Shown: positions 61-15,233 of the stretch, one piece after another | Numbering within the stretch: position 1 is the first letter of the stretch | How the letters are laid out: each line of letters begins with the position of its first letter | Assembly: GCA_019359505.1 (NCBI GenBank) | Contig: JAHHHD010000046.1 | Location: 1-38,160, forward strand | Direction of reading: 5' to 3' | Length of the DNA stretch: 38,160 bases | Source of the DNA: Drouetiella hepatica Uher 2000/2452 | GTDB taxonomy: Bacteria > Cyanobacteriota > Cyanobacteriia > Elainellales > Elainellaceae | Program-made: the position numbers and the translations under genes | Notes under the pieces: model-generated | Seen by the model: only the letters and a program-made list of their open reading frames with translations | Database searches by the model: none | What the model was told of the DNA's origin: nothing

Positions 61-130
61 AGTTGCTAGATTAGACGGCTTCAAGCACCTTAAAGCAGAA
101 GCCGGAAGATGTCAAATGGGTTCTATATGG

Positions 131-1357: not shown

Positions 1358-1408
1358 ATCGTAGGAGTCCTCTCTACTCGACGGCTCGACCCCAGGTTCG
1401 CTAACACC

Positions 1409-1471
1409 ATAAGAATCTGATAAATCATTATAAGAATCTGAAAGAACTTGAGTGTTTGCACTCATTACACT
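1409..1471 (+). promoter_or_regulatory. AraC-type promoter module, copy 1 (orphan)
   Basis: Two direct repeats ATAAGAATCTGA (1409-1420 and 1430-1441) start exactly 21 bp apart, and a -10-like TACACT follows 24 bp after the second (1466-1471). The same arrangement occurs at 10188, 10781 and 15172. Tandem sites two helical turns apart, with the second box overlapping the -35 position, are typical of AraC-family activators. Here the module lies 52 bp after the ISAs1 element and the nearest convincing gene starts 290 bp downstream, so its original target may have been lost. Confidence 0.7.
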
Positions 1472-1761
1472 TAAGTTAACTACTCATAGATGGATTTGAA
1501 GCGCGGTGAAACGATGCAACTCAACAAGTTATTAAATCAGCGGTCTTTTCGTGCGCGAGACTTCCGCGCAGATTCATTGAATCACTAACTTTGATCAGAT
1601 CATGCTCCTGAAATTGATGTGACCGATCGAGCCGCAGACTTTGCAGTCATCAGGCTGCGAACGATCAGTTTAGACAGTTGAAAATGACATATCGGCACTA
1701 CGGTTTGATGGCTCAGAACGCAAATCAGTATCAAACCATATTGAGACAAAGAAAGTCTTGT
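1472..1761 (+). other. Region between promoter module and lipoprotein gene; 32-codon frame only
   Basis: The only reading frame placed correctly for the copy-1 promoter is ATG 1490 to TAA 1588 (32 residues, starting MDLKRGETMQLNKLLNQRS). It has no recognisable domain, and I cannot tell a leader peptide from the remnant of a deleted gene. The rest (1589-1761) shows no repeat, terminator or tRNA that I can recognise. Confidence 0.3.
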
Positions 1762-2217
1762 ATGAAAACACAATCAATGCCCAAAACATTGACAGTGATA
1801 ATCAGTTTGGGAGCTTTTGCATTGATGAGCTGTACTCCTCAATCTACGGCAGAAGAACCCGCACCAGAATCCTCCGTAGAAGCTTCTGCCACTGCAGCCC
1901 CGTCAGTTGCTCCATCTCCTCAAACCTCTAGTAATCGCCAAACTATGAATCTAAATCAAGCTAATACGGCAGCCTCCCAAACCAGTAATCTTTACGTCGG
2001 AATGTGGGTTACGGAAGATGGTTATATCCGCCATGAACTTCTACCGAACAATCGTTACGACGAAGCTCGCGGTAACAGAGAGAGAGCGTATCAGGGATGC
2101 TATGAAATCACAGGAAATCGCATTAATTACTGGGACGATACTGGATTTACCGCCGATGGCGAGTTTCGTGACGGCGTACTTTATCACGGTGGCTATATTT
2201 TTTACCAAGAAAGATGA
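1762..2217 (+). CDS. Small lipoprotein with Atu4866-type domain
   Basis: This is a 151-residue exported protein. The start at 1762 is chosen because it gives a clean lipoprotein signal: basic start, hydrophobic run and lipobox ALMSC with Cys24; the longer frame from 1678 would bury it. Residues 25-75 form a Pro/Ser/Ala/Thr-rich linker. The C-terminal ~75 residues (YVGMWVTEDGYIRHELLPN, then GFTADGEFRDGVLYHGG) resemble the Atu4866 family, a small beta-rich domain of unknown biochemical role often found next to SDR and SnoaL genes. It heads a same-strand group with 2275, 2981 and 3779 (gaps 57, 61 and 33 bp), which may be an operon. Function is unknown beyond probable membrane-anchored periplasmic location. 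Confidence 0.8.
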   Translation: MKTQSMPKTLTVIISLGAFALMSCTPQSTAEEPAPESSVEASATAAPSVAPSPQTSSNRQTMNLNQANTAASQTSNLYVGMWVTEDGYIRHELLPNNRYDEARGNRERAYQGCYEITGNRINYWDDTGFTADGEFRDGVLYHGGYIFYQER

Positions 2218-2274
2218 TCCCTTCAACAGAGAGCAACGATGACTCAAATTGCATGAAGATTTCAGGAGATTGGG

Positions 2275-2919
2275 ATGATACGTTATTTAAGTCAGATTTT
2301 CATTGGCACAGGGCTGATCGGACTGCTGGCTATTCCGGTGATGACGCAAGCTCGCACGAATGAGGCAGATTTTCAGTCGAATGGGACTGCGTTTGAGCCA
2401 AGTCATGACTCGACCGCATTGCATAACCAGCCTGCCCTCGATCAGTTTCCAGCGATCGCAGATTTGGCTCAGGCAACTCAGCCCAATCAAGCAGACGCAC
2501 AGGAGACTCAGGTGATCGAACAGCGCAACAAGGAAATCGTCCGGCAGTCTTTTGACGGTTGGCGCAACGGAACTGGCAACTTCTTCGACCTGCTCGCCCC
2601 AGAAGCAACCTGGACGATCACGGGCACTGGCGCAACTGCGGGAACCTATCGCAAGCAAGCGTTACTCGATCAAGTTATCAACCCAACCAGTGCCCGATTA
2701 TTGACCCCAATCGTACCAACCGTACGCGGCATCTGGGCAGATGGCGATATGGTCATTGCCCTGTGGGATGGAGAGGCGACCGCCGGAGACGGCAGACCTT
2801 ATCGGAACACCTACACCTGGTATTTCAGAATGCAAAACGACAAAGCAATCGAAGCGATCGCCTTTCTGGATATGCAAGAGTTCAACGACTTGTGGGCAAG
2901 AGTTTCACCGAGAAACTAG
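2275..2919 (+). CDS. Exported SnoaL/NTF2-like protein
   Basis: A 214-residue protein with a Sec signal peptide (hydrophobic residues 8-23, likely cleavage after MTQA at 26). A low-complexity linker follows to about residue 80. The remaining part (NKEIVRQSFDGWRNGTGNFF, then LLAPEATWTITGTG and WDGEATAGDGRPYRNTYTW) is a SnoaL-like alpha+beta barrel of the NTF2 superfamily. These proteins may be cyclases, isomerases or simple binding proteins; no catalytic residue can be assigned here. An AGGAG at 2264-2268 lies six bases before the ATG. It is followed at 61 bp by an SDR gene, a frequent pairing in bacterial small-molecule modification loci. Confidence 0.8.
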   Translation: MIRYLSQIFIGTGLIGLLAIPVMTQARTNEADFQSNGTAFEPSHDSTALHNQPALDQFPAIADLAQATQPNQADAQETQVIEQRNKEIVRQSFDGWRNGTGNFFDLLAPEATWTITGTGATAGTYRKQALLDQVINPTSARLLTPIVPTVRGIWADGDMVIALWDGEATAGDGRPYRNTYTWYFRMQNDKAIEAIAFLDMQEFNDLWARVSPRN

Positions 2920-2980
2920 GGCTGGTCGCCATGTCGCTGAGCTAGAGCGACTTCCAAAACTTTAACAAGGAGAACTAACC

Positions 2981-3745
2981 ATGACAAACAACACGAAGAT
3001 CGCATTGATCACAGGAGCGAGTCGAGGACTGGGCAAAAATACGGCTTTGGCACTGGCTAAAAAAGGAGTCGATGTGATTGTGACCTATCGCAGCAGCAAG
3101 GCAGCAGCGAACAGCGTTGTCTCTGCAATTACAGAAATCGGTGGTAAAGCCGCTGCTCTGCAATTGGACACTTCCAGCACAAAATCCTTTGATGAATTTG
3201 TGGCACAGGTCAAACAGACACTTCAAGATCAGTGGCAGACCAAACAGTTTGATTTTCTGGTGAACAATGCTGGAATTGGAATCCATAAGCCGTTCGCTGA
3301 AACCACCGAGGACGATTTTGATCGATTAATGAACATCCAATTCAAGGGCGTTTTCTTTCTCACTCAAAAGCTGCTGCCCTTGCTCAAGGACGGTGGACGG
3401 ATTGTGAATCTTTCGTCAGGTCTGGCTCGTTTTACGCTGCCGGGTTACTCAGCTTATGCCAGCATGAAAGGCGCGATCGAGGTGTTGACTCGATACATGG
3501 CAAAAGAACTGGGACACAGACAGATTGCTGTCAATGTTGTGGCTCCGGGTGCGATCGAAACCGATTTTGCGGGCGGTGCAGTCCGTGACAATCCAGAAAT
3601 CAACAGCTTCCTCGCTTCGCAAACGGCGTTAGGTCGGGTGGGTGTTCCCGATGATATTGGCGGGGCGATCGCATCTTTACTTTCTGAAGACAACCGCTGG
3701 GTAAATGCCCAGAGAATCGAAGTCTCTGGTGGTCAGTCTATTTAA
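2981..3745 (+). CDS. SDR-family NAD(P)-dependent oxidoreductase
   Basis: A 254-residue classical short-chain dehydrogenase, complete for the family (about 250). Visible landmarks are the cofactor motif TGASRGLG (11-18), the NNAG motif (95-98), catalytic Ser145/146, and YASMK with Tyr159 and Lys163. The C-terminus (WVNAQRIEVSGGQSI) matches the usual GGxxx end. Arg15 in the glycine motif and Arg37 after the second strand suggest preference for NADPH. The substrate cannot be predicted. AAGGAG at 2968-2973 supports the start. The gene follows a SnoaL-like gene and is followed by a second, broken SDR. Confidence 0.93.
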   Translation: MTNNTKIALITGASRGLGKNTALALAKKGVDVIVTYRSSKAAANSVVSAITEIGGKAAALQLDTSSTKSFDEFVAQVKQTLQDQWQTKQFDFLVNNAGIGIHKPFAETTEDDFDRLMNIQFKGVFFLTQKLLPLLKDGGRIVNLSSGLARFTLPGYSAYASMKGAIEVLTRYMAKELGHRQIAVNVVAPGAIETDFAGGAVRDNPEINSFLASQTALGRVGVPDDIGGAIASLLSEDNRWVNAQRIEVSGGQSI

Positions 3746-3778
3746 TTTCAATCCACCTCAACAGTCAGGAGAACCATC

Positions 3779-4634
3779 ATGTTGAATGTAGAAAACAAGG
3801 TGATTGCTATCACCGGGGCCAGTAGCGGTATCGGTGAAGCCACCGCGAAGCTGCTCGCCCAAAATGGTGCAAAAGTCGTTTTGGGGGCGCGGCGGACAGA
3901 CAAGCTAGAGAAGCTCGTCGAGGAGAATCAAGAACTCCGCCGCAAGCGGACGGAGTATGAACAGCCAACTTTTCTTGCTAATGACTTACGCCGCAAGCGG
4001 CGGGGAATCTACCCGTAGAGAATCAAGAACTCCGCCGCAAGCGGACGGAGTATGAACAGCCAACTTTTCTTGCTAATGACTTACGCCGCAAGCGGCGGGG
4101 AATCTACCCGTAGAGATTGAGTTTGCCAAAGACAAGTTTGGTCGCGTCGATGTCATCTTCAACAATGCAGGTGTAATGCCCTTATCGCCGATGAATGCCC
4201 TGAAAGTCGCGGAATGGGACAACATGATCAATGTAAATATTCAGGGCGTGTTGAATGGTATCGCGGCGGCGCTGCCAATTATGGAAGCGCAAGGGGGCGG
4301 ACAAATCATCAATACTGCGTCCATTGGTGCCCATGTGGTCGTACCCACTGCGGCAGTTTACTGTGCAACCAAGTATGCGGTTTGGGCAATTTCTGAAGGA
4401 CTGCGGCAGGAATCACAAACTATTCGCGTCACCATCATATCTCCGGGTGTCGTTGACACTGAACTTGGCTCTGATATCACCGATGAGTCATCCAAAGGCT
4501 TGTTAGAAGAATTTCGCAAAACTGCACTGGCCTCAGAGGCGATCGCCAGAGCCGTTTTATACGCTGTATCCCAGCCGGACGATGTTGATGTCAATGAAGT
4601 GGTTGTCCGCCCAATCAGCCAGACGATGATGTAA
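3779..4634 (+). pseudogene. SDR oxidoreductase disrupted by a tandem 95-bp repeat
   Basis: The N-terminal part starts well (AGGAG at 3767-3771, ATG 3779, cofactor motif TGASSGIG) and reads to about codon 48. A 190-bp insert follows, made of two copies of a 95-bp unit, and it introduces stop codons. Downstream (4113-4634) the SDR resumes in another frame: EFAKDKFGRVDVIFNNAG, then YCATKYA with the catalytic Tyr/Lys pair, ending VVRPISQTMM. Compared with a normal SDR about 25 residues around the adenine pocket are missing, so the insert replaced host sequence. A C-terminal frame from ATG 4176 alone would lack the cofactor domain and should be inactive. Confidence 0.88.
3923..4112 (+). repeat. 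Two tandem copies of a 95-bp hairpin-rich repeat
   Basis: Units 3923-4017 and 4018-4112 are identical over 95 bp. Each contains two GC-rich hairpins: CTCCGCCGCAAGCGGACGGAG-like near the left, with a mismatch in the stem, and CGCCGC-AA-GCGGCG near the right. Between them is AT-richer sequence, and the unit ends with GGGGAATCTACCC. One hairpin near each end and the GGGTAGATTCCCC motif resemble the terminal palindromes of IS200/IS605 elements. The unit may therefore be a protein-less derivative of such an element. Identity of both copies implies recent duplication. They lie within an SDR gene and destroy its frame. Confidence 0.9.
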
Positions 4635-5033
4635 ACATTGGACGACACCACTCTGTCTCATCACTGATTTATTTAAGTCTTAAAACCACAAAATCGACTC
4701 GCTTTAATGCGGCGCTCAGTTCTGCTACAGGCATCAACAAAAACGCGAACTTTAGCCGAGAGATGGCGGTTTTTCGGGTACAACCCGGCGATCGCCCTCA
4801 CTCCATCTCTCCCAACCACTCTTTCCCACAACCAACGCCATCGTACTCAATCTTTCGCTGGAAAATGAAACTATCTGAGTGCATCAGTCTTTTACTAAGG
4901 AGTACATATGCAAACACAGTTCATTACATCAGAGGCGATCGCTCCTGCCAATGGTGCAAGATCGGAGATAAGGCAATGACACAAGACACAACAAAAATCG
5001 CTACTTTTTTTGGATGCCACAGTCCTCACTTAA
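4635..5033. other. Spacer between SDR pseudogene and tetR; holds a RidA-like stub
   Basis: About 400 bp without an intact gene. Apart from the 23-codon stub at 4908-4979, which has its own strong ribosome binding site, I see two HIP1-type sequences and no terminator or repeat. A long frame crossing the region (from 4763) is an upstream extension of the TetR frame and has no coding character. Confidence 0.5.
4908..4979 (+). pseudogene. RidA-like N-terminal stub (23 codons)
   Basis: A strong ribosome binding site (TAAGGAG, 4896-4902) precedes ATG 4908, and the product MQTQFITSEAIAPANGA resembles the first residues of RidA/YjgF-family proteins. The frame then ends after RSEIRQ at a TGA. Nothing of the remaining ~100 residues of a RidA domain follows. 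I read it as a gene deleted down to its translation start. A functional 23-residue peptide cannot be excluded. Confidence 0.4.
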
Positions 5034-5062
5034 TTGACTGTCTAGTCACTTATTGTTATAGT
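5034..5062 (+). promoter_or_regulatory. tetR promoter with internal operator
   Basis: TTGACT (5034-5039), a 17-bp spacer and TATAGT (5057-5062) form a near-consensus sigma-70 promoter. The inverted repeat TGACT-GTCT-AGTCA (5035-5048) covers the -35 box and spacer, so a repressor bound there would block RNA polymerase. Transcription should start about seven bases after the -10, at the ATG of the TetR gene (5069), which implies a leaderless messenger. A related, longer palindrome lies at 5650-5675 in front of the next gene. Confidence 0.65.
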
Positions 5063-5068
5063 GTGGGT

Positions 5069-5635
5069 ATGGCTAGACCTAAAAGCGAAGATAAGCGGAA
5101 TGCGATTATGGAAGCAGCAACACGCGCGATTGCTTCACAGGGGTTAAGTGCGTCAACCGCTTTAATCGCCAAAGAGGCGGGTATTGCGAATGGTTCACTG
5201 TTCACTTATTTCGAGACTAAGACTGATTTATTCAACCAACTTTATCTTGAACTAAAAACCGAAATGACTGCAGCCGCTATGAAAGACCTTCCGGAGAGTG
5301 GCGATCTCCGCAAACAGGTTTTTCACGCTTGGTCGAACTGGATCTACTGGGCTGTTTCCAATCCCTACAAGCGGTACGCCTTGAGGCAACTGAATGTTTC
5401 AGATGGCATTACCCCTGCGACGCGCAGTGCAGCGGACAAGGTTGCCGTTGAATTTAACGATTTAATCAAACGCATCCGTGCCCACGGCTCTTTGCAAACA
5501 GCACCATTCAGCTTTGTTGGCGCGCTGCTGAATGGGTTGGCTGAAGCAACAATTGTCACTATGGTGAATGACCCTGACAATGCTGAAAAGCATTGCAAAA
5601 CTGGCTTCGAGACATTTTGGCGCGCGATTAGCTAA
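5069..5635 (+). CDS. TetR-family transcriptional repressor
   Basis: A 188-residue regulator, normal size for TetR. The N-terminal helix-turn-helix is clear: ARPKSEDKRNAIMEAATRAIA, then STALIAKEAGIANGSLFTYF near residues 30-49. The C-terminal ligand domain is diverged, as always in this family, and contains WSNWIYWAVSNPYKRYALRQL, similar to TetR regulators of SDR or efflux operons. The start at 5069 is preferred over upstream in-frame codons because the promoter -10 ends only six bases before it and the family start is regular. Probable operators are in its own promoter and in front of the SDR-MFS pair immediately downstream, so it likely controls both. The inducing compound is unknown. Confidence 0.92.
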   Translation: MARPKSEDKRNAIMEAATRAIASQGLSASTALIAKEAGIANGSLFTYFETKTDLFNQLYLELKTEMTAAAMKDLPESGDLRKQVFHAWSNWIYWAVSNPYKRYALRQLNVSDGITPATRSAADKVAVEFNDLIKRIRAHGSLQTAPFSFVGALLNGLAEATIVTMVNDPDNAEKHCKTGFETFWRAIS

Positions 5636-5649
5636 TTTTTTTTGACTTA

Positions 5650-5675
5650 TTAGTGACTGCCTAGACAGTCACTAA
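5650..5675 (+). promoter_or_regulatory. TetR-type operator before the SDR-MFS operon
   Basis: A perfect inverted repeat TTAGTGACTG-N6-CAGTCACTAA lies between the tetR stop codon and the SDR start. Its inner half-sites TGACT and AGTCA also occur, with 4 instead of 8 bases between them, in the tetR promoter. A plausible -10 (TAATAA, 5673-5678) overlaps its right end. The site is therefore a likely target of the adjacent TetR protein. The palindrome has no T-run after it, so it is not an obvious terminator. Confidence 0.65.
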
Positions 5676-5737
5676 TAAATTGAACACGGCAAACCCATGG
5701 TTGAATGTCAAATTCAACTCTTCATCAGGACAAACTC

Positions 5738-6673
5738 ATGACGAACTGGACAACTGCAAATATTCCTTCTCAAAAAAGCCGATCGGCTGTTGTTACCGGC
5801 ACTGGGGGACTCGGATTCGAGGATGCCCTGGCATTAGCACGGGCTGGAGGCGATGTTATCATTGCGGGTCGCAATTCTCGCAAAGGCGCAGCGGCAGTCG
5901 CAAAAATTCGTAACGAAGTGCCATCAGCAACAGTACGTTTTGAACAAGTTGATCTCGCCAGTCTTCAGTCCGTAACAGACTTCGCCAGACGACTTCGCAG
6001 CCAGCGAGACAGTCTTGACCTGCTGATTAACAATGCGGGTTTAATGGCGCCTCCGAAGCGACTGGAAACCACTGATGGCTTTGAGATGCAATTCGGCGTC
6101 AACTATCTTGGTCACTTTGCCCTTACGGCGGAACTGATGCCGTTGCTGTGCAAAGGGAAAAATGCGCGCATTGTCACGCTATCAAGCATCGCTGCGCGGA
6201 ACGGCACTCTCAATTTTGATGATTTGCAGGCAAACCACAGTTACGAACCAATGGCTGTATATAGCCAATCGAAGCTTGCCTGTCTGATGTTTGCCTTTGA
6301 GCTACAGCGGCGCAGTGAAGCTGGTCAATGGGGCATCGCCAGCCTTGCAGCCCATCCCGGTATCGCGCGCACAGATCTTTTATATAACTCGCCTGGCGGG
6401 TGGAGTGCCCGCATTATCGCGCGATCGCTTTTATGGTTCCTCTTCCAACCGGTACCGCAGGGCGCACTCCCAACGCTTTTTGCGGCGACCTCGCCCGATG
6501 CAAAGGCTGGTGCTTATTACGGACCACACAAGCTGAGCGAAACGCGCGGTTTTCCAGCTTTGTCAAAGGTGCCTCCGCAGGCTACGGACACCGACGTGGC
6601 AGCGCGACTTTGGGACATATCTGAAAACCTGACCAAAATTAACTTTGGGTATCCAAGCGAGGTAAATACTTAG
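5738..6673 (+). CDS. SDR oxidoreductase, retinol/protochlorophyllide-reductase-like subgroup
   Basis: A 311-residue extended-type SDR. ATG 5738 is chosen over the upstream codon at 5705 because AGGA (5727-5730) lies at the right distance. Visible motifs are TGTGGLG (20-26), D72 in VDLASLQSV, NNAG (98-101), Ser149/150 and YSQSK with Tyr175 and Lys179. The length and the AAHPGIARTDL segment place it with retinol dehydrogenase or protochlorophyllide-reductase-like SDRs. The cofactor motif is unusual: most relatives have TGANSGIG, and here the Asn and Ser are missing. The MFS gene starts two bases after the stop codon, so the two are co-transcribed, probably under TetR control. Confidence 0.9.
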   Translation: MTNWTTANIPSQKSRSAVVTGTGGLGFEDALALARAGGDVIIAGRNSRKGAAAVAKIRNEVPSATVRFEQVDLASLQSVTDFARRLRSQRDSLDLLINNAGLMAPPKRLETTDGFEMQFGVNYLGHFALTAELMPLLCKGKNARIVTLSSIAARNGTLNFDDLQANHSYEPMAVYSQSKLACLMFAFELQRRSEAGQWGIASLAAHPGIARTDLLYNSPGGWSARIIARSLLWFLFQPVPQGALPTLFAATSPDAKAGAYYGPHKLSETRGFPALSKVPPQATDTDVAARLWDISENLTKINFGYPSEVNT

Positions 6674-6674
6674 C

Positions 6675-7997
6675 ATGACAGGAAATACTGCACCCTCAAA
6701 TTCCCAATTGGAAGCGATCGACATTGAATATGTGCAGGGATGGCGACAAGCCGCTCTTCTTCTTGTACTTTTCCTGATTAATGCACTTGCTCAGATCGAC
6801 AGAATTTTGCCGTTTATTCTGTTCGAGTCGATCAAGGCGGATCTTTCACTGACTGATACCCAAGTCAGCTTGATTATCGGAATCCCCTTTGCAGTCTGCT
6901 TTACACTCTTCTTGTTGCCGCTTGCCCGTGCTTCGGATCGCGGATCGCCCCGTTTTGTCCTCATTTCGTGTCTCTTGTGCTGCAGCGCGATGACAGCGCT
7001 GGGCGGTTTGTCCGCGAGTTTAGTGTTTTTGGTTCTGACGCGGTTTGGTGTCGCGTTTGGTGTGGCTGGCTGCACTCCTTTAGGACATAAACTGATTGCG
7101 CGCAAAATCAACCCAGGACGTCGCGGTCTAGCGCTAGGCATTTTCTCCATGGGCATTCCGCTCGGCGCTATGGTCGGATTTGCTGTTGGCGGCGCGATCG
7201 GCGATACGTTAGGCTGGCGCGTTGCCCTATTTGGTGCCGGAGCCATCGGAGGGTTGCTCACCCTGTTAGCTACGTTCGTTGTAGAACCGACCCCGCCGCT
7301 TAAGCCAATGGCAGGCAATGTCGAACCGTTTTTGCAATCGAGCCTGAAGTTGCTTTCGTCTCCGGCATTCCGTTGGCTATTCATCACTGCCATCGCCGTC
7401 GGTTTTGCCACAGTCCCTTTTTACATCTTTTGCGCGCCTTTCCTGATCCGTACCCATGGCTTCACCGCCACCGAAGCCGGACTGGCAATTGGGCTTTTGC
7501 AGGGACTGATGGGAATCGTCGGATCGCTCTTAGGCGGACGCGAATTAGACCGCGCAGTTCGCTCCGGGACAAAGAGATTGCTTCTGCCTCCTGCCGTTCT
7601 CTTCCTGATTACCACTGTGACAACAACGGCAGCGTTGTTCGTGCCGACCGGATGGATGTCCGTTCTCTTGTTGGTGCCAGGCATGCTTTCCTTTGCATTT
7701 ATCCTGCCATGGGTTTTTGGCACTGCACACCTTGTGGCAGGTAAGGGTAAGGAGGCGATGGCGTCTAGTCTTGGACTGATAGGTTCCTCTCTTCTGGGTC
7801 CAGCTCTCGGGCCTTTGTTTGTTGGCATGATTAGCGATGCAGCTACAGCGGCACAGATGCCAAATGGACTTAGATTTGGGCTGCTGATTGTTCCGATCGC
7901 ATGTTTCCTGTCCGGTATCGCATGTCTGATTGCAAACCAGCGCATCGCCGTATTGCTTAAATCTGTCCGAAATCTAAGTACAGGACAAAAATCGTAG
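6675..7997 (+). CDS. MFS transporter
   Basis: A 440-residue integral membrane protein with about twelve hydrophobic segments in two halves, the major facilitator layout. The segment LPLARASDRGSPRFVL after the second helix corresponds to the family loop 2-3 motif (GxLaDrxGrrxxl), and GIPLGAMVGFAVGGAIGD matches the glycine-rich fifth helix of many drug and organic-anion transporters. It begins one base after the TAG of the SDR gene, so translation is probably coupled. Together with the SDR and TetR genes it forms a typical inducible modify-and-export unit, but the substrate is unknown. Confidence 0.92.
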   Translation: MTGNTAPSNSQLEAIDIEYVQGWRQAALLLVLFLINALAQIDRILPFILFESIKADLSLTDTQVSLIIGIPFAVCFTLFLLPLARASDRGSPRFVLISCLLCCSAMTALGGLSASLVFLVLTRFGVAFGVAGCTPLGHKLIARKINPGRRGLALGIFSMGIPLGAMVGFAVGGAIGDTLGWRVALFGAGAIGGLLTLLATFVVEPTPPLKPMAGNVEPFLQSSLKLLSSPAFRWLFITAIAVGFATVPFYIFCAPFLIRTHGFTATEAGLAIGLLQGLMGIVGSLLGGRELDRAVRSGTKRLLLPPAVLFLITTVTTTAALFVPTGWMSVLLLVPGMLSFAFILPWVFGTAHLVAGKGKEAMASSLGLIGSSLLGPALGPLFVGMISDAATAAQMPNGLRFGLLIVPIACFLSGIACLIANQRIAVLLKSVRNLSTGQKS

Positions 7998-8265: not shown

Positions 8266-9144
8266 ATGTATGTAGTTTTCGGTGCGACTGGGCAGACGGG
8301 TTCTGCGGTTGCTGACGCTTTGCTTGAGAAAAATCAGTCCGTGCGGGTCGTTTTGCGCTCGGACAAAACCGCCGCCGCTTGGCGGGACAAAGGCGCGGAC
8401 GTTGCTTTTGCAGACCTAAGCGACTTAGAAGCGATGACCAATGCGATGCAGAACACGGACACTGTTTACGCGATGAATCCGCCTGCATACAACGTCGCCG
8501 ATATGTTCGTAGTGGCGAGAGGAATCGGTGAGCGTTACGTTGCCGCCATCAAAAATTCCGGCGCGCAGAAAGTCGTATTGCTGTCTTCGGTCGGCTCGCA
8601 ACACGCTTCGGGCACGGGAAATATTTTGACGACGCACATGTTGGAGACGATTTTCGGCGACTTAGAAATTCCCGTCGCTTATTTGCGGGCATCGGCATTT
8701 TTGGAAAATTGGGGCAGCGTGGCGCAGGTTGCCGCTGAGCAGGGCATTTTGCCGAGCTTCTACACGCCGCTTGAGCGCAAAATTCCGATGGTTTGCGCCA
8801 CCGATATCGGACGAGCCGTTGCCCAAGCGATGACCGAAACTTGGACGGGCAAGCGCATCATCGAACTGCACGGCGCAGCAGATTATTCGCCAAACGATGT
8901 CGCCGCCGCTTTTGCAGCCGTTCTCAACCGTGAGGTGCAGGCTGTCGCTGTCCCCGAAAGCGAGTGGCAGACAACGATTTCCAGCTTCGGCTTTTCGCCC
9001 GAAGCCGTCAACAGTTACAGCGAGATGATGCGCGGCTTCAATTCTGGTCATATTGTGTTTGAAGGGGGAAGCCACGTTCAAACAGTCAGGGGGCAAACGA
9101 TGATTGCAGATGCCATCGGCAAACTGATCGAAGCACAAGCTTGA
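8266..9144 (+). CDS. NmrA-like NAD(P)-binding protein
   Basis: A 292-residue atypical SDR of the NmrA group. The N-terminal nucleotide motif is FGATGQTGSAV (residues 5-15), and VLRSDKTAAAW follows the second strand. The central LLSSVGSQHASGTGN and YLRASAFLENWG stretches are typical of NmrA/QOR2-like proteins, which either reduce quinones or act as redox sensors. The classical YxxxK pair is absent, as expected for this group. It is followed after 31 bp by another SDR with a strong ribosome binding site, so both may be co-transcribed. No recognisable promoter element could be fixed in the 268 bp before it. Confidence 0.88.
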   Translation: MYVVFGATGQTGSAVADALLEKNQSVRVVLRSDKTAAAWRDKGADVAFADLSDLEAMTNAMQNTDTVYAMNPPAYNVADMFVVARGIGERYVAAIKNSGAQKVVLLSSVGSQHASGTGNILTTHMLETIFGDLEIPVAYLRASAFLENWGSVAQVAAEQGILPSFYTPLERKIPMVCATDIGRAVAQAMTETWTGKRIIELHGAADYSPNDVAAAFAAVLNREVQAVAVPESEWQTTISSFGFSPEAVNSYSEMMRGFNSGHIVFEGGSHVQTVRGQTMIADAIGKLIEAQA

Positions 9145-9175
9145 ATCAAAAATTTCACCCATAAAGGAGTCCACC

Positions 9176-9922
9176 ATGACGACAACACTGGCAGGCAAAG
9201 TGGCACTGGTTACGGGCGGTTCACGCGGGTTAGGAGCGGCGATCGCCAAACGTCTTGCTCACGATGGAGCCGCCGTTGCGCTCACCTACACCAGTTCGCC
9301 CCAAAAAGCGGCTCAGGTGGTTCGAGATATCGAAGTGGCAGGGGGAAAAGCTTTGGCAATTCGGGCTGACAGTGCTGATGTAGAAGCGGTAAAACATGCT
9401 GTAACTGAGACCGTCAACACCTTCGATCGTCTCGATATTCTTGTTAATAACGCAGGAGTTGCCGTCGTCGCGCCGATCGACCAGTTCTCGATCGAGGAGT
9501 TTGACCGATTGGTGGCGGTGAATATCAAAGGCGTTTTTGTCGCCACTCAAGAGGCTATTTGTCACATGGGTGAGGGGGGAAGGATCATTATGCTTGGCAG
9601 CGTCAGCAGTGATTTCATCACCCCCTATGTCGGCCTCTCAGTCTATGCGTTGACGAAGGGGGCGATCGCCAGCTTTACCCGTGGTCTTACCCGCGATCTG
9701 GGGTCTCGCGGCATCACCGTCAACAACATCCCACCTGGCCCGATTGACACCGATATGAATCCCGCTGATGGAAGCTTTGCCGTAGAGGTGACTAAGCTGA
9801 CTGCCCTCAGTCGCTATGGACAGGCCGACGAGGTGGCTGGCATGGTTTCCTATCTCGCCAGCCCTGAAGCCGCTTTTGTCACGGGCGCGAGCCTGAAAAT
9901 TGATGGCGGCTCGAATGCTTGA
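9176..9922 (+). CDS. SDR-family oxidoreductase (FabG-like)
   Basis: A complete 248-residue classical SDR: cofactor motif TGGSRGLG (13-20), NNAG (91-94), catalytic Ser142/144, and YALTK with Tyr157 and Lys161. The C-terminus VTGASLKIDGGSNA is standard. AAGGAG at 9164-9169 supports the start. It resembles 3-oxoacyl reductase-like SDRs, but such similarity does not fix the substrate. It follows the NmrA-like gene by 31 bp and precedes a decayed SDR fragment by 49 bp. With the genes at 2981, 3779 and 5738 this makes an unusual local concentration of SDRs. Confidence 0.93.
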   Translation: MTTTLAGKVALVTGGSRGLGAAIAKRLAHDGAAVALTYTSSPQKAAQVVRDIEVAGGKALAIRADSADVEAVKHAVTETVNTFDRLDILVNNAGVAVVAPIDQFSIEEFDRLVAVNIKGVFVATQEAICHMGEGGRIIMLGSVSSDFITPYVGLSVYALTKGAIASFTRGLTRDLGSRGITVNNIPPGPIDTDMNPADGSFAVEVTKLTALSRYGQADEVAGMVSYLASPEAAFVTGASLKIDGGSNA

Positions 9923-9971
9923 ACGAGACGTAATCAAATTTGCAATTCCTGAACTCGACCAGGAAAGCACG

Positions 9972-10189
9972 ATGTTACAAAAACTTTCAAGAAAAGTTGC
10001 GCTAGTCACGGCGGCACTAGCGACATCGGTCTTGCCACAATCAAGCGATTTGTCGATGAAGGTGCCAATGTCTTTATCACGGGTTGTCGTCAGACTGAGC
10101 TTGACGCAGTTTAAACCAGATGGGTAAGAACGTCTTGGGCATTCAGAGCAATGTGATGGGAAGCTTTATCAATCGCGCAGTAACACCAT
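9972..10189 (+). pseudogene. SDR N-terminal remnant with frameshifts
   Basis: ATG 9972 opens [10 protein letters not shown], the usual first strand of an SDR. The frame then slips: the next part of the fold, [20 protein letters not shown] and [13 protein letters not shown], is read in another frame (10012-10110), and QMGKNVLGIQSNV in a third position up to about 10160. So at least two frameshifts are present and the catalytic half is absent. The remnant ends at the AraC-type promoter module that begins at 10188. It probably continued the SDR series of 8266-9922 before being truncated. Confidence 0.82.
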
Positions 10190-10250
10190 AAGAATCTGAC
10201 AAACTGCCCTAAAAATCTGAAAGAAACCAGGTATCGGAACTGACTACACT
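10188..10250 (+). promoter_or_regulatory. AraC-type promoter module, copy 2, driving RidA gene
   Basis: Boxes ATAAGAATCTGA (10188-10199) and CTAAAAATCTGA (10209-10220) start 21 bp apart, with -10-like TACACT at 10245-10250, 24 bp after the second box. Expected transcription start is near 10257, giving a leader of about 27 bases that contains AAAGGA before the RidA ATG at 10284. The layout is the same as in copies 1, 3 and 4. Confidence 0.78.
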
Positions 10251-10283
10251 CCAGATAAATATATAGAAAAGGACTTAGACACC

Positions 10284-10682
10284 ATGAGAAAGCAACTTGT
10301 TAACCCGCCACAACGTTATGATGGCAAACCGCACGGATTGTCCCACGCTGTAAACGATACCGCATCGGGTGTCGTTTACATTTCTGGTCAGGTTGACTGG
10401 GACATGAATTTCCAAGTCTCATCCCATACTGTCGAGGGGCAACTAAAGAACGTGCTAAATAACCTAACGATCGTCCTAGATGCAGCGGGAAGTTCCGTAG
10501 AGAATTTGCTGAATCTTCGCATCTACATTCGCGGTGAACTTGGAGAATTCTTTGACGATATTGCGCCAATTCTCGCGCAATTTCTGGCAGACTCACGCCC
10601 CGCGATTACTGGCATCGGTGTTGCCTCGCTCGCCTCCCCAGAAACATTAGTTGAGATTGAGGCAATAGCAGCCCTTAAGTAA
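10284..10682 (+). CDS. RidA/YjgF/UK114-family protein
   Basis: A 132-residue soluble protein of the RidA family, whose archetype hydrolyses reactive 2-aminoacrylate-type enamines and imines as a trimer. Visible family features are HAVNDTASGVVYISGQVDWD, QLKNVLNNLTIVLDAAGSS, IYIRGELGEFF and the C-terminal SRPAITGIGVASLASPETLVEIEAIA. The Arg in SRPA lies at the position of the catalytic Arg of E. coli RidA. The TGIGVASLAS variant indicates one of the Rid subfamilies other than the archetype, so its exact substrate is uncertain. It is the first gene after AraC-type module copy 2, and the SnoaL-like gene after it has its own module. Confidence 0.92.
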   Translation: MRKQLVNPPQRYDGKPHGLSHAVNDTASGVVYISGQVDWDMNFQVSSHTVEGQLKNVLNNLTIVLDAAGSSVENLLNLRIYIRGELGEFFDDIAPILAQFLADSRPAITGIGVASLASPETLVEIEAIAALK

Positions 10683-10780
10683 CTGTCTGCTAACTGGGTT
10701 GGCGAAATCCCTCCAAGTGTGTGTTGGGCAGGCGCACAGCTCGTGCGACGCCACCAAAAGTGTCGGGTTCACTCAACACT

Positions 10781-10843
10781 ATAAGAATGTGACAAACTGC
10801 CATAAGAACCTGAGAGTAATCCAGTATGGAGACTTACTACACT
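10781..10843 (+). promoter_or_regulatory. AraC-type promoter module, copy 3, driving SnoaL-like gene
   Basis: Boxes ATAAGAATGTGA (10781-10792) and ATAAGAACCTGA (10802-10813) start 21 bp apart, and TACACT follows at 10838-10843, 24 bp after the second. Spacer CAAACTGCC between the boxes is identical to that in copy 2, so copies 2 and 3 form a sub-type. The expected start of transcription is near 10850, 27 bp before the gene start at 10877. Confidence 0.75.
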
Positions 10844-10876
10844 TCAGATGGATGGAACATTACGTAACTCAAATCT

Positions 10877-11269
10877 ATGGATTTCTCTCACCTTATGGAA
10901 CAAACACTTAAACAGAATAAAACATTCGTTCACAATCATTTTGAAGAGATTGTGAACCGCAAGAATTCTGCCATTGCTTACCAAAACTTTGCACCTAACT
11001 TTATAGATCATGAAGAACCTTTTGCAGGATTGGTGAGTCCCGATCTAGTTAAGCAGACGATGGAGAAAGCATACGCAAAGTATCCCGATTTGCGCGTTAC
11101 AGTCGAGGACACGATCGCTGAAGGCGACAAGGTTATGGTGCGGTGTCTATGGCGTGGGACTGATTCTTCCACAGGTAAAGAGATGGAGTTTAAGGGCTTT
11201 GTACTTTGGAGATTAGCAGAGGGCAAACTTGCTGAGCGTTGGGCAACGATTGCACCGCCACTTAGGTAA
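10877..11269 (+). CDS. SnoaL-like / ester cyclase family protein
   Basis: A 130-residue protein of the SnoaL-like polyketide/ester cyclase group in the NTF2 superfamily. Typical segments are FEEIVNRKNSAIAYQNFAPN, FIDHEEPFAGLVSPD (the family usually has a His in this loop), YPDLRVTVEDTIAEGDKVMV and the closing WRLAEGKLAERWATIAPP. Unlike the protein at 2275, it has no signal peptide and should be cytoplasmic. No clear ribosome binding site precedes ATG 10877; an internal ATG at 10895 is an alternative start. It lies directly behind AraC-type module copy 3, so it is probably induced with the RidA gene. The substrate is unknown. Confidence 0.85.
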   Translation: MDFSHLMEQTLKQNKTFVHNHFEEIVNRKNSAIAYQNFAPNFIDHEEPFAGLVSPDLVKQTMEKAYAKYPDLRVTVEDTIAEGDKVMVRCLWRGTDSSTGKEMEFKGFVLWRLAEGKLAERWATIAPPLR

Positions 11270-11492
11270 AGTATCTTTTTGCTAACCCAGGCACAAGCGT
11301 AATCGCGAATAATTCGTCCTGGTCAACTCTACAATTTTAAGGTGGTGGATAAAATGATTAAGCACAAAGATTTTGCGTCTCGAATTACTGAACGGAGACC
11401 CTTAGCGAACCTGCCAAGTATGAATCCTTCTCTGAGGCTGTTAGTGCGGTAAATCAGCAAATTGAAAAGCACTGCCTGTTTGCGGGAGAGGC
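11270..11492. other. Spacer without recognisable gene before SDR remnant
   Basis: An open stretch (about 11390-11500) reads EPAKYESFSEAVSAVNQQ in one frame but has no start and no family that I recognise. It may be a further gene fragment. No promoter module of the 21-bp type and no terminator are visible. Confidence 0.3.
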
Positions 11493-11648
11493 AAGACTCA
11501 AGAACAGATTGAGCATCTCAGCAAGCTTGCTCCAATGGAGCGGCATGGAGAACCCCTCGACATTGCGCGTGTCGTTTCATTCCTGGCAGAAACGGACGGG
11601 GGCTGGGTTAATGCTCAAGTTCTTCGCGCTAACGGCGGTTACGCTTAA
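11493..11648 (+). pseudogene. SDR C-terminal remnant (51 codons)
   Basis: In frame from 11493 to the TAA at 11646-11648 the translation ends LAPMERHGEPLDIARVVSFL, then AETDGGWVNAQVLRANGGYA. This is the standard C-terminal end of a classical SDR (RxGxPxDIAxxVxFL, then GGWVNGQxLxxNGG). There is no start and no N-terminal domain. The N-terminal SDR remnant at 9972 lies on the same strand; the two might be halves of one gene split by the RidA/SnoaL segment, but different subfamily features are also possible. The remnant is in a frame other than the aldo/keto reductase gene after it. Confidence 0.82.
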
Positions 11649-11697
11649 TTCAAATTCGGTATATTTCATCTTCAACTCATTACAAAGAAAACGCACA

Positions 11698-12798
11698 ATG
11701 AAGGCAACCCGTCCAGCAATTAGGCGAAATGTTTCCCGTCGGTCGGTACTTGGACTGTTAGGATTTGGTGCCGCCACCGCTGCCTTAACACCCACTTTTT
11801 TGAAGACGGCACGGGCACAGAATCAAACTCAAACTCAACCGTCGCAACCTGCTTCAACCCAACTATCGCAAATCATCACGAAGGAAATTCCGCGTACAAA
11901 GGAGAAACTGCCTGCAATCGGTCTGGGAACGTTTATGACCTTTGATACTTTATCTAATCAGCCCCGCGATCATCTTCAGCAAGTAATGCGCCGCTTTTGG
12001 AATGCAGGCGGGCGAGTGGTCGATACCTCACTGCTCTATGGGATGTCGGAAGTGAACGTGGGCGAATTTGCCAGAACACTCGACTTGACCAATGACTTGT
12101 TTATTGCTGACAAAACCTGGGCAACTGGTGAGTATCTGGGCGATCGCAGCCAAGCGCAGCGTCAGTTAGAACAATCAATGACGCGATTATCACGCGATCG
12201 CATTGATGTAATGCAGGTTCATAGCTTGGTGAATGTAGATGCAATTTTGCCCTTGTTAAAAGCATGGAAAGCAGAAGGTAAAATTCGCTACGTGGGCGTT
12301 ACCCACCACGATCCGTTATATTTTGCTGCGCTTGAGAGATGGATCGAGAACGGCGATCTAGACTTTGTTCAACTTCGCTACTCAATTCGTCAACGTGGAG
12401 TTGAAGACAGAATTCTCCCTGCGGCAGCGGCGCGAGGAACAGCCGTCTTAGCCAACATGCCCTTTGAAAAAGCCCGCCTCTTTGAATTGGTAAAGGGGCA
12501 ACCACTACCCGATTTTGCCAGTGAAATTGGCTGCGAGAACTGGGCGCAGTTTTTTCTCAAGTATGTGATTTCTCACCCGGCTCTAACCTGTGCGATTCCC
12601 GCAACTACAAACCCCGATCACGTTGTTGAAAATATGGGGGCACTAAGAGGATCGTTACCTGATGATTCAATGCGTACCCGAATGGTGGAACACATGGAAA
12701 GCCTTCCCGGCTTTGACAACCTTCTCCAAACGCCCTGGTATCCTGGCAAGAATTTTAGCGGGTTGGTTCGCCTGCCAAATCCACGTCCAATCGGTTGA
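11698..12798 (+). CDS. Tat-exported aldo/keto reductase
   Basis: A 366-residue protein. ATG 11698 is the right start because it gives a twin-arginine signal (NVSRRSVLGLLGFGAATAAL, cleavage near ARAQ); the longer frame from 11509 runs through an SDR remnant. A Gln/Thr/Pro-rich linker is followed by an aldo/keto reductase barrel. The catalytic tetrad can be assigned: Asp and Tyr in VVDTSLLYGMSE, Lys in ADKTWATG and His in VMQVHSLVN. Export in folded form fits a cofactor-bound enzyme. NAD(P)H is scarce in the periplasm, so the export is notable, although Tat-tagged members of this family are known. The secreted Kelch gene follows after 15 bp and is probably in the same transcript. Confidence 0.92.
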   Translation: MKATRPAIRRNVSRRSVLGLLGFGAATAALTPTFLKTARAQNQTQTQPSQPASTQLSQIITKEIPRTKEKLPAIGLGTFMTFDTLSNQPRDHLQQVMRRFWNAGGRVVDTSLLYGMSEVNVGEFARTLDLTNDLFIADKTWATGEYLGDRSQAQRQLEQSMTRLSRDRIDVMQVHSLVNVDAILPLLKAWKAEGKIRYVGVTHHDPLYFAALERWIENGDLDFVQLRYSIRQRGVEDRILPAAAARGTAVLANMPFEKARLFELVKGQPLPDFASEIGCENWAQFFLKYVISHPALTCAIPATTNPDHVVENMGALRGSLPDDSMRTRMVEHMESLPGFDNLLQTPWYPGKNFSGLVRLPNPRPIG

Positions 12799-12813
12799 GA
12801 TGGAGTCTGTATT

Positions 12814-13854
12814 ATGTTGCGTAGATTTAGGTATTTGATTTTCCTGTCGCTGTTGGTCTTTTCACTCATAGCGCTAGGTTCGCCCGTGCTCAGTCAAGCA
12901 CAAAGCCAGTTGCCCTATTGGACTGAAGCTGCACCGCCAACAGTCGCTCGGCAAGAGCTATATCCAGAAGTTTTGGACGGAAAAATTTACGTGGTCGGCG
13001 GTTTACTCAGCCCAAACACCGGGTTCTCAGCGCATTTCGAGTCTTATGATCCGGTCAACGATACATGGACAGCCTTGAGACCGCTTCCTGAAGCCCGACA
13101 TCACATTACGCTGTCGGCAGTCAATGGCTTGCTCTATGGTGTGGGTGGTTTCACAGGTGGATTTCCAGACTGGCGGGCGCAGCCGACAATGTTCGTCTAC
13201 GATCCTGCTTCTAATACTTGGACTGGAGGGATTGACCTGCCAGCGGCTCGTGCCGAGGGTGTATCCGCAGTGGTCGATGACAAGATATACCTGATTGGTG
13301 GGCGCGTTCGAGCTACTGAGGATGCTCGGCTGTTCAATGACCACATTGATAGTGTGCGAAACGAAGTCTTTGATCCGACGATAGGGCGTTGGACAGCCCG
13401 TGCCAATGCACCCACAGCGCGAAACAGTGCAGCGTCGGCTGTCATTGATGGAAAGATCTATGTGGTCGGGGGGCGCGAGTTTTCTAAGAATGCTGATGGC
13501 ACGACGCAGCAGGTGAATGTGCCAAATCTTGAGGTCTACGATCCAGAACGCGATCGTTGGGAAACACGATCGCCGCTGCCTCAAGCCCAAGGGGGTCTGG
13601 CTGCAACCGCACTCAACGGCAAACTTTACGTGTTTGGCGGCGAACAGTGGGTTCCAGAGCAAAAAGTTTTTGCCGAAAGTTGGGTATACGACCCGGAAAC
13701 CGACGTGTGGGAAGCATTGCCGCCCTTGCCAACTCCACGACATGGATTGGGAGCATCGGCAATTGGCAACCGAATCTTTGTGTTTGGTGGTGGCACCCAA
13801 ACAGGCGGAAATGCAGCAACAGCAATCCACGAGGTGCTGGTATTGCCCACCTAG
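12814..13854 (+). CDS. Secreted Kelch-repeat beta-propeller protein
   Basis: A 346-residue exported protein: signal peptide at residues 1-30 (RRFRYLIFLSLLVFSLIALG, cleavage near SQAQS) and then six Kelch repeats. Each carries the double-glycine core, for example DGKIYVVGGLL, NGLLYGVGGFTGG, DDKIYLIGGRV, DGKIYVVGGRE, NGKLYVFGGEQ and GNRIFVFGGG, with the spaced Tyr and Trp of YDPxxDxW. Six blades should close into one propeller. Such proteins may bind sugars or partner proteins, or act as sialic-acid mutarotase-like or galactose-oxidase-like folds; no copper ligands can be assigned. Its gene is 15 bp behind the Tat aldo/keto reductase, suggesting both act outside the cytoplasm. Confidence 0.92.
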   Translation: MLRRFRYLIFLSLLVFSLIALGSPVLSQAQSQLPYWTEAAPPTVARQELYPEVLDGKIYVVGGLLSPNTGFSAHFESYDPVNDTWTALRPLPEARHHITLSAVNGLLYGVGGFTGGFPDWRAQPTMFVYDPASNTWTGGIDLPAARAEGVSAVVDDKIYLIGGRVRATEDARLFNDHIDSVRNEVFDPTIGRWTARANAPTARNSAASAVIDGKIYVVGGREFSKNADGTTQQVNVPNLEVYDPERDRWETRSPLPQAQGGLAATALNGKLYVFGGEQWVPEQKVFAESWVYDPETDVWEALPPLPTPRHGLGASAIGNRIFVFGGGTQTGGNAATAIHEVLVLPT

Positions 13855-13892
13855 AGTGCTATGCACTAAGAAGTTTATTGAGAATGATCCTA

Positions 13893-14105
13893 ATGACGCA
13901 TTCAACATTACAATTCAAGAATGATTCTGAGGATGAGATTACACCTCAGAATCATTCTCTCTGTGACTCTAGAGTTAATGATGCTCTGATTGCGATCGCG
14001 CAAGAAGTCGCTGAGTTGTTGAAACAATCTTATCCAGTACAAGCCGATGAAATCGATACCATAGAATTAATAGGCGGGAACAATTTTGTTTTGCTGAATG
14101 CTTGA
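13893..14105 (+). CDS. Small hypothetical protein (70 aa), uncertain
   Basis: ATG 13893 opens 70 codons ending NFVLLNA. The C-terminal two thirds (VNDALIAIAQEVAELLKQSY, then PVQADEIDTIELIGG) look like a regular amphipathic helix followed by an acidic segment and may be a real small protein. No family is recognised and no good ribosome binding site is present. The first third coincides with a perfect 15-bp inverted repeat (13918-13958), which argues that the DNA here may have another role. An in-frame ATG at 13884 is an alternative start. Confidence 0.35.
   Translation: MTHSTLQFKNDSEDEITPQNHSLCDSRVNDALIAIAQEVAELLKQSYPVQADEIDTIELIGGNNFVLLNA
13918..13958. repeat. Perfect 15-bp inverted repeat, 11-bp loop
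   Basis: Arms AGAATGATTCTGAGG (13918-13932) and its exact reverse complement (13944-13958) are separated by 11 bp. It lies 63 bp behind the Kelch gene. No T-run follows, so it is not a classical terminator on either strand. It could be a bidirectional terminator, a protein site or a small element. It also overlaps the small frame starting at 13893. Confidence 0.85.
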
Positions 14106-14279
14106 CTCTTGGCTGAGTTGGTAAAGTCTGTCTAAGGAGAGAAGTATCGATCGCTAGCTTATGCTTTAATACGTCGATGTCATCTTAGGTTCCTGACTGG
14201 AAAACGCTTTTTCTGTGCTAGCGTCGGGCTAGTAAAGTGTCTGCTTTGTAACTGCAAGTAATTGGTAAGAGCAAGCTCT

Positions 14280-15167
14280 ATGGCTAGCAACCTGCTCAAC
14301 TCGCTCGAACTCAGCCAACGGTTCAATAAACCACGGATACTCTCCAGTCGTCAAATGAACTGGAATGGCATTTTGGTTGAGCAGCTTCAAAGTCCTGTTT
14401 CAACTTATGAGGTGGAACTCCCAGCCTTCTCAGATCATTGGCTCAGCTTGCACTTGGGGAATCCTGCCCCTATGATTCAAAAACGGGACGATCGCCTGCA
14501 TGAATCAATCCTTTACGAAGGGGACAATCTCTTTGTCCCTGCTGGACAACCAAGTTACTGGTGTCGAGATAAGAGTGGTGTCATTTGCGCTCCGCTATTC
14601 ATTTGCTTAAAACCGGAACTGATTCAACACGTTGCTGAAGCTTCCGATATTGATTCAAATCGGTTTGAGCTTTTGCATAGCTTCGGTCAGCAAGATCTGC
14701 AACTTCACCAGATTGGCATGCTGCTGTTCGCTGAGTTGCGATCGGGTGGGATGATGGGGAAACTATATGTCGAATCAGTTACTCAAATCCTGGCAATTCA
14801 TTTACTGCGACACTATTCGACTGTCACGCAACCGATCGCATCACAAAACAGCAGCATCACTCGTACCCAGTTGCAGCAGGCGATTGATTATATTCACACT
14901 TACCTAAATCGAGATCTATCCTTGGTGGAACTGGCAAGTGTTGTTAACATCAGCCCGACTTACTTTGCGAGTTTGTTTAAGCAAGCAATGGGGATTTCGC
15001 CCCATCAGTACGTGATTCAACAGCGTGTGAAACAGGCGAAATTGATGCTGTCGAAAACAGATTTGGCGATCGCAGACATCGCCCTACAAGTCGGCTTCTC
15101 CAGTCAAAGCCATCTGACGCAACAGTTTAAACGCCACACTGGAATGACACCGAAGCAGATTCGCTAG
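14280..15167 (+). CDS. AraC-family transcriptional regulator
   Basis: A 295-residue regulator. The C-terminal ~100 residues hold two helix-turn-helix motifs: LVELASVVNISPTYFASLFK, and IADIALQVGFSSQSHLTQQF followed by KRHTGMTPKQIR, the signature end of AraC/XylS proteins. The N-terminal part is a diverged sensor domain (DHWLSLHLGNPAPM, GDNLFVPAGQPSYW) like that of PchR/YesN-type members. ATG 14280 is preferred to TTG 14262 because AAGAG lies eight bases before it. Four copies of a promoter module with 21-bp-spaced direct repeats occur in the window, one starting five bases after this gene. Spacing fits a two-HTH activator, so this protein is the best candidate to bind them. Confidence 0.93.
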   Translation: MASNLLNSLELSQRFNKPRILSSRQMNWNGILVEQLQSPVSTYEVELPAFSDHWLSLHLGNPAPMIQKRDDRLHESILYEGDNLFVPAGQPSYWCRDKSGVICAPLFICLKPELIQHVAEASDIDSNRFELLHSFGQQDLQLHQIGMLLFAELRSGGMMGKLYVESVTQILAIHLLRHYSTVTQPIASQNSSITRTQLQQAIDYIHTYLNRDLSLVELASVVNISPTYFASLFKQAMGISPHQYVIQQRVKQAKLMLSKTDLAIADIALQVGFSSQSHLTQQFKRHTGMTPKQIR

Positions 15168-15171
15168 CTCC

Positions 15172-15233
15172 ATAGGAATCTAATAAATCACGGTAAGAAT
15201 CTGAAAGAACTTGAGTGTTAAAACTCATACACT
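15172..15233 (+). promoter_or_regulatory. AraC-type promoter module, copy 4, directly behind araC-like gene
   Basis: Boxes ATAGGAATCTAA (15172-15183) and GTAAGAATCTGA (15193-15204) start 21 bp apart, with TACACT at 15228-15233, 23 bp after the second. From the second box on it is almost identical to copy 1 (AAGAACTTGAGTGTT). It points towards the paoABC-like operon, but two transposase fragments now fill the 800 bp in between, so this promoter may have lost its gene or may read through them. Confidence 0.72.

Follow-up and report, generated by a model that had tools for sequence, protein, structure and literature searches.

A recurrent, probably AraC-activated promoter module in Drouetiella hepatica and other cyanobacteria, a candidate movable operator

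Class-II promoters that depend on AraC-type activators have an established anatomy, in which two boxes are followed by a -10 element and a -35 element is absent. At the araBAD promoter of E. coli, the activator AraC, with its double helix-turn-helix (HTH), occupies araI1-I2, direct-repeat half-sites 21 base pairs (bp) apart, the proximal one reaching into the -35 region. Here we describe a module of this layout that occurs four times in 38,160 nucleotides (nt) of the cyanobacterium Drouetiella hepatica Uher 2000/2452 (GenBank assembly GCA_019359505.1, contig JAHHHD010000046.1, positions 1 to 38,160; hereafter the window) and recurs in other genomes of its class. From sequence comparison, we consider it probable that the module is the operator and -10 element of a class-II AraC-activated promoter, turned into a movable unit that serves diverse genes; binding and activation by the AraC-type protein are predicted.

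The window encodes such a regulator (14280-15167, forward strand, 295 residues), for which an N-terminal beta domain with helices is predicted ahead of the C-terminal double HTH, an architecture that would resemble that of E. coli AraC. The system differs from araBAD in the sequence of its half-site and in the place of its operator, which follows the regulator gene and recurs elsewhere in the genome. As in the MarA/SoxS/Rob regulon, one type of activator would serve many promoters that share a box, and stand-alone DNA-binding-domain relatives (about 118 residues) exist here too. Unlike the single marbox, however, the modules of our census have two boxes (one-box forms occur), and many regulators of the clade have an N-terminal domain. 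XylS-dependent Pm promoters likewise have direct repeats about 21 bp apart that overlap the -35 region, and we know of no repeated portable module in that system. In horizontal regulatory transfer of intergenic promoters, as proposed here, a regulatory region moves apart from the genes it drives, but the cyanobacterial piece carries a scrap of its own regulator gene, which marks its origin, and precedes unrelated genes. No cyanobacterial AraC regulon of this kind was matched by title or abstract start in the literature searched, in which most subscription journals were uncovered, and the string TAAGAATCTGA appeared only in three papers, titled on plague DNA, juniper and mice. The regulator and the promoter logic are of a known kind, and the titles and abstract starts searched gave no match for the operator, the regulon or the portable arrangement.

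Anatomy of the proposed promoter module

All four modules lie on the forward strand. Module 1 (1409-1471) consists of box 1 at 1409-1420, box 2 at 1430-1441 and the -10 element TACACT at 1466-1471. Module 2 (10188-10250), which follows the remnant of a truncated SDR gene, has its boxes at 10188-10199 and 10209-10220 and its -10 at 10245-10250. The same elements are found at 10781-10792, 10802-10813 and 10838-10843 in module 3 (10781-10843), and at 15172-15183, 15193-15204 and 15228-15233 in module 4 (15172-15233). An earlier reading of this DNA, made by a model without database searches (hereafter the sequence-only reading), had reported four such copies, with boxes 21 bp apart and TACACT following box 2 after 24, 24, 24 and 23 bp (at 1466, 10245, 10838 and 15228), and all of this was borne out. 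Its placing of module 4 five bases behind the regulator gene needs a small correction: 4 nt separate the AraC stop codon (15165-15167) from box 1.

When the window was searched for two 12-nt boxes separated by nine nucleotides, with no more than three mismatches, the copies deviated from the pattern at 0, 2, 2 and 3 positions (modules 1 to 4), and 100 shuffles of the window gave a mean of 0 two-box matches. The genome-wide motif search that had been suggested returned the same four sites as the only matches in the whole source genome (6,416,890 bases, 87 contigs), with 0 for the reversed pattern. The distance from module start to ATG codon is 96 nt for both the RidA gene behind module 2 and the SnoaL-like gene behind module 3. 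Over 64 nt the four copies are mutually 0.56-0.78 identical and, given this divergence, do not look like products of recent duplication. The sequence-only reading held that spacing is constant and that the intervening sequence varies, but the stretch between box 2 and TACACT is not simply variable: copies 1 and 4 are alike there, as are copies 2 and 3, and several positions are conserved over a census of 194 copies. A hairpin between box 2 and the -10, noticed by eye in copy 1, is not retained in the other copies.

The census comprises 194 modules distinct by sequence, taken from loci found by searches with the module and with AraC, so that the upstream classes given below are no random sample. 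Their consensus is aTAAGAATCTGAcAAAtcatcgTAAGAATcTGAAAGAAgtngAGcaTTggAACTcAnTAcAcTt and that of the half-site is TAAGAATCTGAYAAA. Strong half-site pairs no more than 80 nt apart were spaced 21 bp in 71 of 72 cases (window and loci L055-L134). In 165 of the 194 modules a -10 element that matches at least five of six letters is found at the same offset, and in 12 it is one base nearer. The -35 place (positions 34-40) is taken by the end of the second half-site, AAGAAgt, which agrees with TTGACA at no more than two of six letters at 17- or 18-bp spacing. With the proximal half-site in this place and no TTGACA-like -35, RNA polymerase would depend on the activator being bound. The next open reading frame (ORF) is on the same strand for 175 modules, on the opposite strand for 12 and out of reach for 7; that is, 175 of the 187 with an ORF in reach face one on their own strand. 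Random occurrence inside genes, named in the sequence-only reading as a sign against its proposed regulon, was not seen (0 of 194 within an ORF of 120 residues or more), and the module loci read backwards, a 4.1-Mb control, gave 0 operator hits.

The candidate regulator and the 3' end of its gene

The C-terminal double HTH of the window's AraC is confirmed by Pfam (HTH_18, 6.1e-25; HTH_AraC, 6.3e-25), with its helices predicted, and its top sequence match in the PDB is the DNA-binding domain of E. coli AraC (2k9s). In the predicted structure, whose mean predicted local distance difference test score is 83.5 over the whole model, solved AraC-type DNA-binding domains fit well by Foldseek, with root-mean-square deviations of 1.2-2.5. 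With the whole chain, ToxT, Rns, CsvR and CuxR rank first, at low template modelling scores (0.31-0.41). The N-terminal part is predicted to be beta-rich and has no Pfam hit; it may sense an inducer.

Members of the AraC family contact DNA through two recognition-helix stretches. Among about 66 full-length genes of the clade these read SPTYFASLFK in 57 and SSQSHLTQ(Q/H)FK in 63, the rest being near variants, whereas all 15 other AraC homologues compared differ. Within the order, full-coverage matches to the DNA-binding domain of the window's AraC are either at least 71% or at most 55% identical to it. We delimited the clade at E ≤ 1e-40 for the 121-residue domain, a cut chosen after this gap was seen; in the class-wide search the accepted matches reach down to 68% identity.

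Position links this clade to the module. At AraC loci fetched by protein alone, a two-box operator lies within 120 nt behind the gene in 53 of 54, and the exception has one box. The operator begins exactly 7 nt past the last sense codon in 40 of the 54, at +5 to +12 in 10 more and at +69 or +70 in 3, and 17 of 2000 random 120-nt stretches from the whole, module-enriched collection of loci score for an operator. The 54 come from 77 AraC loci found by exact peptide patterns, a set that is not exhaustive; 23 were omitted as partial, HTH-only or distant matches, and frameshifts are present in a few of those kept.

The gene behind which the module sits is often no longer whole. Of the 194 modules, 68 are preceded by an intact AraC DNA-binding region, 48 by a 3' AraC tail and 11 by a trace, and ahead of the other 67 no AraC was found. 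The last AraC codon lies 7 nt ahead of box 1 in 97 of the 127 with AraC sequence. Tails run from 5 to 97 codons and were called at a suffix score of at least 18 (in the null, 99% score below 12.6 and the maximum is 20.2), which leaves the calls of the shortest tails and of the 11 'short' traces uncertain. To this last class belongs an apparent remnant ahead of module 1 (1393-1404, score 12.4), made up of the final three AraC codons and the stop codon and too short for certainty. Mean operator scores are 54.0 behind intact AraC, 54.0 behind tails, 53.3 behind traces and 52.9 where no AraC was found. For copies without intact AraC, pairwise identity is 0.34 upstream, 0.73 in the 64-nt module and 0.30 downstream. 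Since scores are alike and identity is confined to the module, the module appears to be retained where AraC is decayed or missing, which is what a functional promoter would lead one to expect.

Two observations on the remnants may be recorded. At L086 (minus-strand site 9759) an AraC tail, a partial module, another AraC tail and a module stand in tandem. In remnants ahead of modules at L087, L090, L095, L098, L099 and L103, short inserts interrupt AraC at a GCGATCGC (HIP1-like) site that lies some 31 codons before its end, and the same holds for remnants at L104, L163, L178, L191 and L216. What had seemed a recurrent breakpoint 31 codons from the AraC end is, in about 12 of 20 copies judged by eye, such an insert within a longer remnant.

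Alongside the full-length regulators, a script found 29 stop-free HTH-only genes, mostly of 118 residues, which are stand-alone double HTH proteins of the MarA type, although two of 142-144 residues may be truncated full-length genes. Their recognition-helix stretches are identical to those of the clade in 14 and 20 of the 29, respectively, and near variants otherwise. One-box modules, with the distal 21-bp repeat cleanly missing, lie behind an AraC end at L113, L120, L214, L132 and others. Many HTH-only genes have no module behind them and are followed within about 30-50 nt by a small ORF often starting MKFKAI or similar (L094, L115, L117-L119), a layout repeated at L122-L125 and L128-L132. 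On plasmids of Gloeocapsopsis dulcis (L213) and Oscillatoria nigro-viridis PCC 7112 (L214, conjugative), at 1-6350, an HTH-only AraC gene stands behind three genes, which encode a large protein with PAS domain, a response regulator and a member of the DsbA family. From this order, a MarA-like activator of the same promoters may be expressed under the control of a kinase.

We propose that the AraC protein encoded at 14280, or a clade relative, would bind as a dimer to both TAAGAATCTGAYAAA half-sites, which at 21 bp apart would present the same face of the DNA, and that the proximal half-site would enter the -35 place. The native site of the module would be directly past the araC stop codon, where it would drive the next gene. 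Copies elsewhere could have arisen either by recombination that put the araC 3' end and module before many genes or by loss of araC in place, ahead of a retained module. In the resulting regulon the remaining AraC copies would control, in trans, genes for RidA, SnoaL, SDR, cupin, hydrolase, CPBP and other proteins.

Distribution across the class and competing explanations

Across the order (36 genomes, one family), the pattern search gave 53 sites in 12 genomes and 0 reversed matches in all. The three other genomes of the genus gave no match to the window's two-box pattern, and one of them (G002) has three weaker matches to a 69-nt sequence-only model, all without the first box. This model (R1) was built on 55 of 58 sites (S19, S46 and S54 omitted) and a position weight matrix was trained on 53 of the 58 (S11, S19, S38, S46 and S54 omitted). 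Against 388 genomes of the class, the 69-nt model matched 66 at E ≤ 0.001, of which 50 are strong (best E ≤ 1.3e-13). Modules are often clustered, as with six in 17 kb of G138, and G015 has 25 model matches. The AraC clade is present in 45 of the 388 genomes; all 45 are matched by the model, and none of the 322 model-negative genomes has the clade (Fisher p 5e-43). The protein search names Nodosilinea, Phormidium, Nostoc, Scytonema, Calothrix, Brasilonema, Synechocystis and others. Outside cyanobacteria, AraC matches reach at most 42%, save for a Chloroflexaceae metagenome bin at 78%, perhaps a binning error; carriage by phage was dropped as an idea, the two Acinetobacter phage matches being at 40% only. 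One AraC copy, at 84% and accompanied by two modules, lies on a plasmid of [Synechococcus] sp. NIES-970, and the clade is absent from the three congeners of the source genome, two of them only 68-72% complete. Together, the plasmid copy and this absence point to horizontal movement.

The claim of the sequence-only reading that AraC at 14280 controls a dispersed set including the RidA and SnoaL genes is supported in part. Co-occurrence (45 of 45 clade genomes), the position of operators behind the gene and the 21-bp repeats reaching into the -35 place make the module look like a directional promoter tied to this AraC clade, and it precedes several genes, RidA and SnoaL among them. The claim falls short in that the family is class-wide and not a local set, that module 4 lacks its usual target and that a minority of the matched genomes have no intact clade AraC.

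This last point is one of several that weigh against our interpretation. Modules in genomes without this AraC gene, which the sequence-only reading had named as refuting its proposal, are found in 21 of the 66 matched genomes (clade cut E ≤ 1e-40) and in 7 of the 50 with strong matches, the other 43 having the clade. Among the seven, G024, G086 and G157 keep AraC remnants despite having no intact clade AraC, and in G009, G088, G183 and G021 (83% complete) no AraC fragment above 45% identity was found. All nine genomes checked for remnants hold other AraC paralogues, possible substitute activators. Conversely, the clade genomes G014 and G258 give only weaker matches (1.3e-10 and 2.3e-7), and those of G060, G094 and G205 (E 5e-4 to 7e-4) may be due to chance. 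Scoring of the class genomes used stricter filters and at most 13 candidates per genome, and since modules lie behind araC, physical linkage accounts for part of the genome association. A module was found in the 700 nt ahead of only 5 of 67 AraC genes, in three cases near that limit, and we therefore do not propose general AraC autoregulation through an upstream module. Behind the 29 HTH-only genes we found two boxes in 7, one box in 3 and no module in 19, and of 66 full-length genes 6 do not reach the two-box threshold and another has a single box. A strict pairing of HTH-only genes with one box and of full-length genes with two is contradicted by the seven two-box cases.

Could the module be mobile or repetitive DNA, of the kind of miniature inverted-repeat transposable elements (MITEs) or repetitive extragenic palindromes (REPs), that resembles a promoter by chance and is repeated by copying and not for regulation? 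The many dispersed copies per genome, such as the 25 matches in G015, would fit, and the AraC scraps and the single tandem of tails and modules show that recombination moves the piece. Such elements have defined ends and are conserved as whole units, whereas here conservation is limited to the operator and -10 region (0.73, against 0.34 and 0.30 in the flanks) and the outer end is not fixed, with tails of 5 to 97 codons. Moreover, the ORF ahead is on the same strand for 175 of 187 copies, no copy lies inside an ORF, and the window's copies are only 0.56-0.78 identical; we regard this explanation as very unlikely. Still harder to credit is that the conserved stretch belongs to the araC mRNA, as a 3' end or attenuator, and not to the next gene's promoter. 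Its near-fixed position past the stop codon is what one would expect of such a feature, but 67 of the 194 modules have no AraC sequence detected directly ahead and score about equally, the -10 keeps one offset in 165 of 194, and the downstream ORFs are on the same strand.

Alternatively, the promoter may be regulated and yet bound by another protein, an AraC paralogue, a response regulator or a nearby TetR, with clade AraC as a frequent neighbour. We consider this improbable, if less so than the two explanations above. Four genomes with strong modules have neither clade AraC nor a detected remnant and all hold other AraC paralogues, and TetR genes account for 11 of the 173 downstream ORFs. Counter to this, 45 of 45 clade genomes are matched, and the module keeps a near-fixed distance behind the gene across genera. 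TetR operators, for their part, are usually palindromes and not 21-bp direct repeats.

If, as we favour, the module is an AraC-activated promoter, it defines a concrete regulon in cyanobacteria, for which an operator, a candidate regulator and a list of targets are at hand, and experiments can then ask what triggers many RidA, SnoaL, SDR and cupin genes. The AraC scraps would then record the passage of a promoter between genes, which is usually inferred without such marks. We offer more tentatively, as a possibility somewhat short of even, the joint reading that the regulon spreads by its own promoter and that two sorts of activator read the same promoters. The 3' end of the activator gene and the promoter would form a recombination unit that recruits genes across cyanobacteria and plasmids, and promoters would outlive the activator copies that brought them. 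One activator would be a full-length AraC that senses a ligand, and the other a DNA-binding domain on its own whose recognition helices are identical or almost so; one promoter family would join chemical and kinase signals.

Genes behind the modules

The 173 downstream ORFs fall into 54 single-linkage clusters; ORF calls and clusters are mechanical, and the labels rest on a Pfam search of 40 downstream proteins (20 picked from an earlier list of such proteins and 20 of the 54 cluster representatives). The largest clusters are RidA, including SnoaL-RidA fusions (18), SDR (18), alpha/beta hydrolase (14) and TetR (11). SnoaL-type clusters have 9, 5 and 5 members, CPBP membrane protease-like proteins 9, cupins 7 and GMC oxidoreductases 5; FAD/berberine-type, metallo-beta-lactamase fold, isochorismatase and pirin proteins form clusters of 4, and AraC itself one of 3. 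This mix suggests the handling of reactive small molecules, possibly detoxifying.

In the window, all on the forward strand, the RidA family gene (Ribonuc_L-PSP, 10284-10682) would be the target of module 2 and the SnoaL-like gene (10877-11269) that of module 3. The probable target of module 1 is an Atu4866-like protein (PF11512, 1678-2217), in an order of module and gene also found at L178; the next same-strand gene, for a SnoaL_2 protein (2275-2919), may be co-transcribed. The SDR gene that follows (2981-3745) may be the original target: at L095, L097, L102 and L103 the promoter flank resembles that of module 1, and an SDR gene follows the module there. Past box 2 of module 4, homology with relatives stops after 71 nt, and the CPBP or TetR gene found in relatives is missing. 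The region beyond (15276-15920) lies past the end of that homology; its ORF at 15588-15920 has no Pfam hit and is presumably a transposase fragment. Judged from this comparison, module 4 is orphaned, the usual target behind the window's AraC having apparently been lost.

An insertion sequence (131-1357, forward strand) with a DDE_Tnp_1 transposase (212-1342) and perfect 20-bp inverted repeats ends 51 nt before module 1. The truncated SDR gene that precedes module 2 (9923-10187) has an 84% counterpart in G027 (L084), where the module behind the similar truncated gene heads an alpha/beta hydrolase gene. Past the module region, at 16041-19863, lie genes for a molybdenum-dependent oxidoreductase, with 2Fe-2S and molybdopterin-binding subunits.

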